A stretch of DNA of 50,441 nt from Terriglobales bacterium (GTDB lineage: Bacteria > Acidobacteriota > Terriglobia > Terriglobales > Acidobacteriaceae). The position numbers and the translations under genes were made by a program. Location: the NCBI GenBank assembly GCA_035457425.1, contig DATIBR010000009.1, positions 1 to 50,441 on the forward strand, written 5' to 3'. A model generated the notes under the pieces. That model did not search any database, was not told the DNA's origin, and saw only the letters and a list, made by a program, of their open reading frames with translations. Shown piece after piece: positions 19,720-22,716 of this stretch (within the stretch, counting starts at the first letter, position 1; each line of letters starts with the position of its first letter).

Positions 19720-20108
19720 AGCAAGTGGCCGCCGCGCTCATCCTGCAGCAGGGCAAGCTGCTGATCTGCCAGCGCACCCGGCACCAGCCCATGCCGCTCA
19801 AGTGGGAGTTCCCGGGCGGCAAGATCGAGCAGGGCGAGCAGCCCATCGACGCGCTGCGCCGCGAGCTCGACGAGGAGCTCGGCATCGACGCCACCGTCGG
19901 CGACGAGCTGGTCCGCATCAAGCACACCTACCGCAATGGCGGCGCCGTCGAGTTGCGCTTCTTCTTGGTGACGGATTTCGTCGGCGAGGTGGAGAACCGC
20001 ATCTTCAAGGACGTACGCTGGGTCGTACCCGCGGAGCTCCCCGGCTATGACTTCCTCGAGGCCGACGTGTCGCTCGTCAACGACCTCGCCGCCGGTAAGC
20101 TGCTTTAA
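19716..20108 (+). CDS. mutT: MutT-type Nudix hydrolase (8-oxo-dGTP diphosphatase-like)
   Basis: The 130-residue protein has a canonical Nudix box, GGKIEQGEQPIDALRRELDEELGI, preceded by LKWEFPGGK, as in MutT. It removes oxidised nucleotides (8-oxo-dGTP to 8-oxo-dGMP) from the pool. DVRWVVPAELPGYDFLEADVSLV is a typical MutT C-terminus. The ATG at 19716 overlaps the stop of the GAF gene (ATGA). It converges on the Nramp-like gene with a 4-nt overlap of stops. Confidence 0.92.
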   Translation: MKQVAAALILQQGKLLICQRTRHQPMPLKWEFPGGKIEQGEQPIDALRRELDEELGIDATVGDELVRIKHTYRNGGAVELRFFLVTDFVGEVENRIFKDVRWVVPAELPGYDFLEADVSLVNDLAAGKLL

Positions 20109-21355
20109 GCCTCGAAACCCATGAACAGCAGCACGCCCGACAGCACGATCATGATCACGATCGTCGCCAGCGCGATCACGTTGTAGAAGCGCGAATTCAC
20201 GTGCTTCCCCATCAGGTATTCCTTGTTCACCAGCCGCAGCATGAAGATCAGCACGAACGGCAGCAGGATCCCGTTCAGCACCTGCGAGAGCACCGTGATC
20301 TTCAGCAGCGGGAAGTCGGGGATGAGGATCACGCCGGCGCCCGCCACGATCAGGAAGGTGTACAGCCAGTAGAAGGCGGGCGCCTCGCGGAACTTCTTGT
20401 CGATGCCCGACTCCAGCCCCAGGCCCTCGCACACCGTGTACGCCGTGGAGAGCGGCAGGATCGAGGCCGCGAACAGCGACGCGTTGAACAGACCGGCCGC
20501 GAACAGCAGGTACGCCCAGTCACCCGCCAGGGGCCGCAGGGCCTGCGCCGCGTCCGCCGCCGCCGCGATATGGAACTGCCCGTGCGTGAATAGCGTCGCC
20601 GCACACGCCACCATGATGAACCACGCCACGATGGGCGCAAAGATCGAGCCCACCAGCACGTCCGCCCACACCGCGCGATACTGCCGCACCGTCGTCCCCT
20701 TCTCGACCACCGACGCCTGCAGGTAGAACTGCATCCAGGGCGCGATGGTCGCGCCCACGATGCCGACGATGAAGTACACGTACTCGGAATTTTTCAGCGC
20801 CGTGGTCGGCGGCCGCACCGTCGCCTTCGCCGCCTCGATCCAGTTCGGCCCCGCGAGCACGCCCGCCACGATGTACGCGATGTAGAACAGCGACGCGACC
20901 AGGAAGACTTTTTCCACGGTCTTGTAGTCGCCCTTGACGACGATCAGCCACACCACCGCGGCGGCGATGGGCACGCTCCAGTACTTGGAGACATGGAACA
21001 GTTCCATGCTGCTCGCCACGCCCGCAAACTCCGCCACCACGTTGGCGAAGTTCGTGACCACCAGCGCCGCCATCATGAAGAAGGTGATGCGGAAGCCGAA
21101 CTCTTCGCGGATCAGGTCGGAGAGGCCCTTGCCTGTGACCGCGCCCATGCGCGCCGACATCTCCTGGATCACGACCAGCGCCACCGTCATGGGGATGACG
21201 GTCCACAGCAGGCTGTAGCCGAAGCGCGCGCCGGCGAACGAGTAGGTGTAGATCCCGCCCGCGTCGTTATCGACGTTGGCGGTGATGAACCCGGGACCGA
21301 CCACGGCCAGCAGGAAGAACAGCCGCGTGCGCCACAGCTTGAACGTTCTCCGCAT
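20105..21355 (-). CDS. Nramp-related divalent metal transporter (possible Mg-type, NRMT-like)
   Basis: The 416-residue protein has about 11 membrane helices and the Nramp fold, starting FFLLAVVGPGFITANVDNDAGG. Aligned to classical MntH, the helix-1 motif DPGN reads DAGG: the metal aspartate stays, the asparagine becomes glycine. The helix-6 motif MPH reads APW (GATIAPWMQFYLQ), so the transition-metal-selecting methionine is alanine. These are, as I recall, the substitutions of the Nramp-related Mg2+ transporters. Mn2+/Fe2+ import is thus less likely than Mg2+-like transport. Inner membrane. Its start is divergent from the selenoprotein gene across 223 nt. Confidence 0.88.
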   Translation of the reverse strand: MRRTFKLWRTRLFFLLAVVGPGFITANVDNDAGGIYTYSFAGARFGYSLLWTVIPMTVALVVIQEMSARMGAVTGKGLSDLIREEFGFRITFFMMAALVVTNFANVVAEFAGVASSMELFHVSKYWSVPIAAAVVWLIVVKGDYKTVEKVFLVASLFYIAYIVAGVLAGPNWIEAAKATVRPPTTALKNSEYVYFIVGIVGATIAPWMQFYLQASVVEKGTTVRQYRAVWADVLVGSIFAPIVAWFIMVACAATLFTHGQFHIAAAADAAQALRPLAGDWAYLLFAAGLFNASLFAASILPLSTAYTVCEGLGLESGIDKKFREAPAFYWLYTFLIVAGAGVILIPDFPLLKITVLSQVLNGILLPFVLIFMLRLVNKEYLMGKHVNSRFYNVIALATIVIMIVLSGVLLFMGFEA

Positions 21356-21578: not shown

Positions 21579-22070
21579 ATGGAGCTCACCAGCACCCTCA
21601 AGGTTGGCGATGCGGCACCGAACTTCTGTCTCGGAGCCGCCAATAGCGACGACGTCGTCTGCCTCAACAACACCCTCCGCAAAGGCCCCGTCCTCGTCGA
21701 ATTCCTGCGAGGCACCTGGTGACCCAACTGCGTCAAGCGCATGGCTCAGTTCGAGCCCTTCCAGGACCGGATCACCCAGGCAGGGTCGCTTCTCTACGTC
21801 GCCGCCGAGAAGCGCGGCGGCCTCTTCAAGCCGGAGAAGTTCCTGCTCGAGCATCCTGTCAGCTTCCCGTTCCTGCTCGACGAAGACCGCAAAGTCACCA
21901 AGGAGTACGGCGTCTACCACCGCCTCGGGTTCGACGCCATCCACATCGCGCGTCCTTCGTCGTTCGTCATCGACACCAGCGGCATCATCCGCTTCCTGCA
22001 TATGGGCGCATCACAAACGGACCGCGCGCCGGTCGAGCAGGTGCTCGCAGCGCTCGCAAACGCGAAATGA
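21579..22070 (+). CDS. Redoxin (AhpC/TSA-like) with in-frame TGA, probable selenoprotein
   Basis: One continuous frame of 164 codons runs from ATG 21579 to TGA 22068-22070 if the TGA at 21720-21722 (codon 48) is read through. The first part reads LKVGDAAPNFCLGAAN and ends VLVEFLRGTW. The TGA is followed by PNCVKRMAQFEPF, and the fold continues to FPFLLDEDRKVTKEYGV and ARPSSFVIDTSGIIRF. Homologous peroxiredoxin-like proteins carry a cysteine exactly here (GTWCPxC), so the TGA sits on the active-site residue, giving a UxxC motif. A hairpin just after it (21726-21751) fits a bacterial SECIS. Conservation of the fold after the TGA argues against a pseudogene. The protein would be 163 residues, a cytosolic thiol/selenol oxidoreductase. 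sel genes are not in the window. No strong Shine-Dalgarno is visible. Confidence 0.85.
21726..21751 (+). promoter_or_regulatory. Candidate bacterial SECIS hairpin
   Basis: It starts 4 nt after the in-frame TGA. AACTG (21726-21730) pairs with CAGTT (21747-21751). After a 5-nt bulge, AGC (21736-21738) pairs with GCT (21744-21746), closing a GCATG loop. The loop begins 17 nt after the TGA, within the distance usual for SelB-binding bacterial SECIS elements. The structure was folded by eye. Confidence 0.5.
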
Positions 22071-22083
22071 GTTTGGAGGACCA

Positions 22084-22716
22084 ATGACAAAGAAACTAGC
22101 AGTCACCCTTGGGCTGGTCGTGCTCCTGGCGGCCTCCGCCGCCGCGCAGGAACAGCTCGCGCTGCCGGCGGGCACCGGCGTGAAGATGAAGCTGGAGACG
22201 GCCATCTCTACGTCGAAGTCGAAGGCCGGCGACACCTTCTCCGGTCGCGTCACCGAACCTGTGGTGCAGGGCGAGACCACCGTCATCCCGGTCGGCTCGA
22301 CCATCCAGGGACACATCGTGCGCGTCACCGAGAACCGCCGCATCAAAGGGACGCCCACCATCGAGATCAATCCCGACGTCATCACCATGCCGACGGGCGA
22401 GAAGTTCACGCTCAACGCGGTGGTGGTCGACACCAACATCGACGGCACCAAGGTCAACGAGGAAGGCGCCATCAAGGGACCCGGCCACGACAAGCGTGAC
22501 CTGCTGGTCGCCGGCGCCGGCGTAGGCGCGGGTGTCGGCATCGGCGCGGCCGCGGGCGGCGGCAAGGGCGCCCTGGTCGGCGCCATCATCGGGGGCGGCG
22601 CGGCGGCGGCCCACTGGCTCTGGCGCAAGCGCTCCGCGGAACTCCCCGCCGGCTCCGAGATCACCATGGAGCTCAGCCGGCCCATGCAGCTCAACAACAG
22701 CTCCGCCGGAAAATGA
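22084..22716 (+). CDS. Exported glycine-zipper protein of unknown function
   Basis: The 210-residue product has a signal peptide (LAVTLGLVVLLAASAAAQ). A beta-rich middle follows (GVKMKLETAISTSKSKAGDTFSGRVTEPVV, then VIPVGSTIQGHIVRVTENRR), resembling the TrbI/VirB10-like beta domain by its pattern of short strands. Near residues 140-175 a glycine-zipper or transmembrane-like stretch (GVGAGVGIGAAAGGGKGALVG) may insert in or lie along a membrane. It ends with the strand ITMELSRPMQL. GGAGGA lies 3 nt before the ATG. Function unknown. It follows the selenoprotein gene by 13 nt and is closed by the terminator at 22734. Confidence 0.8.
   Translation: MTKKLAVTLGLVVLLAASAAAQEQLALPAGTGVKMKLETAISTSKSKAGDTFSGRVTEPVVQGETTVIPVGSTIQGHIVRVTENRRIKGTPTIEINPDVITMPTGEKFTLNAVVVDTNIDGTKVNEEGAIKGPGHDKRDLLVAGAGVGAGVGIGAAAGGGKGALVGAIIGGGAAAAHWLWRKRSAELPAGSEITMELSRPMQLNNSSAGK

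Follow-up and report, generated by a model that had tools for sequence, protein, structure and literature searches.

A probable UxxC redoxin selenoprotein of Acidobacteriota with a conserved in-frame TGA codon and a SECIS-like hairpin

Background

Selenoproteins of the redoxin class are already on record in prokaryotes. A Redoxin family protein (PF08534) with a UxxC motif, accession HEU0032618.1, is listed in Table 1 of the prokaryotic selenoprotein catalogue (PMC13188914), and a Prx-like thiol:disulfide oxidoreductase (PF00578) with a UxxC or UxxU motif is catalogued as well (PMC9312934, PMC13188914). The GOS survey tabulates Prx-like 3 with 68 Sec and 2,608 Cys homologues (PMC2398784), and the catalogued PF08534 redoxin is possibly identical to Prx-like 3 (PMC13188914, PMC2398784). 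Within Acidobacteriota, selenoproteins are on record for Occallatibacter riparius (PMC12013277).

The redoxin gene described here lies in a window of 50,441 nucleotides (contig DATIBR010000009.1 of a Terriglobales bacterium), the whole stretch of DNA that was analysed. Its named relatives, L055 (Terriglobales) and L056 (Edaphobacter), point to Acidobacteriota as the phylum. Because UxxC redoxin and Prx-like selenoproteins are already catalogued, we file the gene within this known kind, which it probably joins, perhaps as an unmodelled subfamily. With the catalogued PF08534 redoxin it has in common the Pfam family, the UxxC motif and a single Sec; the two were compared by description and may represent the very same subfamily, although the accessible parts of the reviews do not tie the catalogued protein to Acidobacteriota. 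In contrast to Prx-like 3, which is mostly Cys (PMC2398784), the close relatives of our gene are nearly all Sec. The PF00578 type, likewise compared by description, is alike in AhpC-TSA fold and UxxC motif, whereas our protein scores slightly lower with AhpC-TSA than with Redoxin. The SelL-related redox protein (NF040769) shows a weak profile likeness of 40.5 bits, far under the curated cut-off of 120 bits. Finally, selenoperoxiredoxins of the PrxQ/Bcp type (TxxU), which the locus L012 of the same genome resembles, belong to the same fold class. Our gene shares the Sec machinery with L012, which also has a hairpin 3' of the UGA, but the Sec of L012 is at the peroxidatic position (PGUTIEAC) and that of our protein is in WUPNC.

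Results and discussion

The redoxin (Prx/TlpA-like) coding sequence occupies positions 21579-22070 of the forward strand and specifies 163 amino acids with Sec48, the terminal TGA being included in the coordinates. It starts with ATG at 21579, its codons run over 21579-22067 and its TGA stop is at 22068-22070; the translation reads MELTSTLKVG...FLRGTW-U-PNCVKRMAQFEP.... The preliminary description had proposed a likely selenoprotein with a UxxC motif, on the grounds that a single in-frame TGA at codon 48 replaces the catalytic cysteine of a redoxin, that the second cysteine is intact and that the fold continues downstream. Each of these points was borne out. No internal stop is present other than the TGA at 21720-21722 of the forward strand, read as the Sec codon of a GTWUPNC motif; the second cysteine, Cys51 (UPNC), is preserved; and the homologue L056 and the paralogue L010 have Cys at the same column. 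The 115 further codons before the terminal stop complete a match of the read-through protein to the entire Redoxin profile (1-148 of 148; 68.6 bits against a cut-off of 26.6), and AhpC-TSA is matched over nearly the whole profile (65.4 bits against a cut-off of 26). None of the NCBIfam models, selenoprotein models included, scored above its own cut-off, the highest score being that of ResA with 45.9 bits.

Orthologues were found in 40 of the 298 genomes of the order (E<=1e-20), and all matches that extend across the site contain a single internal TGA. Its context in the orthologues read is GTWUPNC, with GTWUPTC in L053, and the order-level codon alignment has TGA at this column in all 38 Sec rows. 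The conservation extends beyond the order: in a sample of 396 genomes of the phylum, TGA was present in 15 of 15 matches at E<=1e-25, and the ten of these that come from six other families have it within RGTWUPNC, RGTWUPAC or RGTWUPSC. Two phylum homologues are listed with two TGA codons, one within the aligned frame and one that ends the frame. Trp, Sec/Cys, Pro and the second Cys were invariant among 34 sequences. As this TGA is common to relatives across the phylum, it marks the gene as a real selenoprotein of a kind already known.

Stray stops elsewhere in the frame were absent from the relatives read, where the sole damage was a frameshift approximately 13 codons past the TGA in a same-genus orthologue (L064, G189:C13:170200-172700), which is either an indel error of the MAG or its assembly or a sign of decay. 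In genome G145, a further match to the redoxin (L069, G145:C87:1-1200) lies at a contig end and covers only residues 60-159, representing an assembly duplicate or a paralogue. A search of plasmids gave approximately 30% identity or less among the matches listed.

The draft source genome (3.14 Mb in 192 contigs, 96% complete) contains the whole set of genes, selA, selB, selC and selD, that the preliminary description had proposed to look for. The tRNA-Sec (C92:239-335; 72.7 bits) has the anticodon tca (UCA) according to ARAGORN, and selA, selB and selD were detected with 563, 337 and 373 bits, respectively. In addition, selD itself has an in-frame TGA, read as Sec, at AAGUASK (L023:1477-2430, G000:C127), the known Sec position of Sec-containing SelD proteins. 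A UxxK motif for SelD is tabulated in the catalogue (PMC13188914 Table 1).

In two other redoxins of this genome, the active site likewise has a single in-frame TGA, followed by a hairpin with a loop similar to that of our gene. L011:937-1389 (G000:C75) is a second UxxC redoxin (YWUPFC) with an apparent membrane or signal segment ahead, as judged by eye, and a hairpin GCUCCGC-AGGUUC-GCGGAGC 3' of the TGA. L012:1501-1956 (G000:C131) is a PrxQ/Bcp-type peroxiredoxin with the TGA at the peroxidatic position and then a hairpin with a GUU loop.

Across the order, a tRNA-Sec match of at least 60 bits was found in 38 of the 40 genomes with an orthologue and in 85 of the 258 genomes without the gene (Fisher P 2e-14, phylogeny ignored; genomes counted by hand). 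The 60-bit line is our own choice and excludes weaker matches that are possibly other tRNAs: matches of 47-59 bits were put aside as possible cross-matches, and the match in L002 was identified as tRNA-Ser by ARAGORN. The two orthologue genomes without a strong tRNA-Sec match, G189 and G262, both have selA.

A hairpin downstream of the TGA had been drawn at 21726-21751. It can indeed be formed but is not the conserved one, as it showed no covariation clearly beyond shuffles, and 23 of 39 relatives lack an intact innermost pair. The conserved pairing starts 17 nt further downstream, at 21743-21757 of the forward strand, where a candidate bacterial SECIS apical hairpin, GGCUC-AGUUC-GAGCC, has a 5 bp stem and a 5 nt loop (21748-21752) that starts 26 nt past the UGA, with G at loop position 2. 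The published bSECIS model (PMC13188914) calls for a loop of 3-9 nt located 16-37 nt past the UGA, a stem of 4-16 bp, a G within the first two nucleotides of the loop and an MFE <= -7.5 kcal/mol. With an MFE of -7.8 kcal/mol for the 31-nt segment 21735-21765, the hairpin agrees with this model in loop, distance, stem, G and MFE, so that the SECIS-like element anticipated in the preliminary description exists, albeit through a different pairing. Since the single-hairpin MFE z-score is a modest and unremarkable -0.9, the case for this SECIS candidate rests on comparison rather than on folding energy.

Two pairs of the candidate covary, pair 25/37 (GC, GU, AU) and pair 27/35 (UA, CG; alignment numbering), and 97% of the alignment cells in the stem are paired; shuffles give 94%, and sliding the stem gives no more than 46%. 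Of 49 Sec homologues, 43 form a stem of 5 bp or more at a fixed register, compared with 4.5% under synonymous recoding and 1.2% when the position is slid; because this register was chosen after seeing the sequences, a looser register-free test was added, which gave 44 of the 49, compared with 33% under synonymous recoding and 36% when slid. A clean 4-bp stem is absent from five of the 49 relatives, all with a GCC codon at +8. In distant homologues the stem is rewritten and the loop still reads RGUU. Hairpins were recorded in L082 (UCGCGC-AGUU-GCGCGA), L079 (CUGGCGC-AGUUG-GCGUCAG) and L081 (GUCGCC-GGUUC-GGCGAC, loop starting at 17 nt).

Codon usage behind the TGA is also constrained, with CGC at +6 in 37 of 38 sequences, CAG at +9 in 38 of 38 and GAG at +11 in 36 of 36, whereas in the remaining gene the same codons account for 52%, 71% and 54%. 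Relative to background, synonymous entropy is on average lower over codons +1 to +13 than elsewhere (Mann-Whitney P 0.013). The P values for codon constraint are indicative only, the sequences being related. The hairpin at 21743-21757 explains this synonymous constraint. The MFE structure of 21720-21765 also has a small proximal hairpin, UGCG-UCAAG-CGCA, at 21729-21741 of the forward strand, 3' of the UGA and 5' of the apical hairpin, with 95.5% of cells paired, and a similar two-hairpin layout is seen in the paralogue L011. As no compensatory change was observed, the evidence for the proximal hairpin is weak and it is not claimed here.

Computation shows the recoded frame, the Sec machinery, a TGA column that is conserved and a SECIS-like hairpin that covaries; with the Cys homologue, these support the proposal of a UxxC selenoprotein. 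A pseudogene or sequencing error, in which a Cys or other sense codon was mutated to or misread as TGA and left two dead fragments, might be sought in a draft assembly and in the frameshift of same-genus L064, but the identical TGA recurs throughout the phylum in dozens of independent genomes, the protein is conserved beyond it in a frame otherwise free of stops, and the synonymous constraint lies right behind it. Presence in dozens of genomes, together with the orthologues of the order, indicates that the TGA is not there by chance, and this conservation leads us to regard such an origin as already refuted, with hardly any probability left to it. Alternatively, UGA might have come to encode Trp or Cys, or might be read through by a route that does not involve Sec, as a frame that is open under a changed code alone does not prove Sec. 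However, UGA is the ordinary stop of the redoxin gene itself and of many relatives, the genome has the UCA tRNA-Sec along with selA, selB and selD, a SECIS-like hairpin follows the codon, and presence of the gene goes with tRNA-Sec; thus, decoding of this sort seems very improbable. The reading we prefer, and consider close to certain, is a small redoxin-fold selenoprotein in which UGA48 would be read as Sec by means of SelB, Sec-tRNA(UCA) and the hairpin at 21743-21757 and would contribute to a UxxC redox pair. This member of the Acidobacteriota very probably decodes the UGA at its catalytic position as selenocysteine.

By analogy with known families, SelB carrying Sec-tRNA(UCA) would be recruited in vivo by the mRNA hairpin 21743-21757 to decode codon 48, and Sec48 and Cys51 would then form the redox pair of WUPNC. 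The selenolate of Sec48 would attack a substrate in its oxidised form, such as a disulfide or perhaps a peroxide. A selenenylsulfide would subsequently form between Sec48 and Cys51, and a thioredoxin-like reductant would reset it.

The predicted structure, with Cys in place of Sec, has a mean pLDDT of 87.8 and was built from four sequences. A rival view, which concerns the activity alone and not the Sec reading, accepts the selenoprotein as real but sees in it chiefly a PrxQ/AhpE-like peroxidase instead of a thiol:disulfide oxidoreductase. It is favoured by the closest solved structures, peroxiredoxins of the Bcp, PrxQ and AhpE types with TM scores of 0.74-0.83 by query length, and by the Pfam AhpC-TSA match; however, the peroxiredoxin PxxxT/SxxC motif is absent, positions -7 and -3 relative to U48 being Glu41 and Gly45, and the WUxxC arrangement with its resolving Cys at +3 (WUPNC) is thioredoxin/TlpA/ResA-like, in agreement with the sub-cut-off ResA score as the best in NCBIfam. 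ResA/DsbE-type thiol:disulfide oxidoreductases are also among the structure matches. A mainly peroxidatic role is possible but rather doubtful. As WUPNC is present and PxxxT/SxxC is missing, thiol:disulfide chemistry is favoured, and by its residues the active site looks more like that of a thiol:disulfide oxidoreductase than of a classical peroxiredoxin; family knowledge likewise suggests an activity of the thiol:disulfide type.

Upstream of the redoxin gene, an Nramp-type transporter is encoded on the opposite strand (20105-21355; 329.5 bits). The downstream gene at 22084-22716, 13 nt past the redoxin stop, encodes a conserved protein without a Pfam match that has a signal peptide and a glycine-rich stretch, as judged by eye. 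In most relatives a homologue directly follows the redoxin, with approximately 30 such loci, including L056, and this kept neighbourhood supports the orthology of the redoxins. The downstream gene was rejected as a functional partner: it has homologues in 126 of the 298 genomes, many of them where no redoxin was found, and the link is therefore one of synteny only.

Among the homologues of comparable identity, L056 alone has Cys (TGC; GTWCPNC); it comes from a MAG that bears the label Edaphobacter aggregans. A search of this genome found no selA, its tRNA-Sec-like match of 50 bits falls within the range of the weaker matches set aside, and a SECIS-like hairpin was sought in L056 and not found. 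In the tree, whose outgroups from other families also have Sec, L056 is nested within the Sec sequences; support is weak at its immediate node (81/67), 92/95 at the 39-row node and 95/85 at the enclosing 43-row node. The pattern fits a Sec-to-Cys reversion, for which one sequence is little evidence. More broadly, it seems somewhat probable that these redoxins constitute a distinct subfamily that extends across Acidobacteriota and is almost exclusively Sec; within the sampled family, Sec would be the older state, and the rare Cys form would have arisen by reversion once the selenium machinery had been lost.

Conclusions

Ordinary gene callers and standard annotation would cut this selenoprotein gene in two, and as no NCBIfam model covers the subfamily, public genomes would contain mis-called members. 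The orthologues collected across the phylum, with their covarying SECIS-like hairpin, would make a useful test set for bacterial SECIS finders, and L056 together with its Sec relatives offers a natural Sec/Cys comparison for the question of why Sec is kept.
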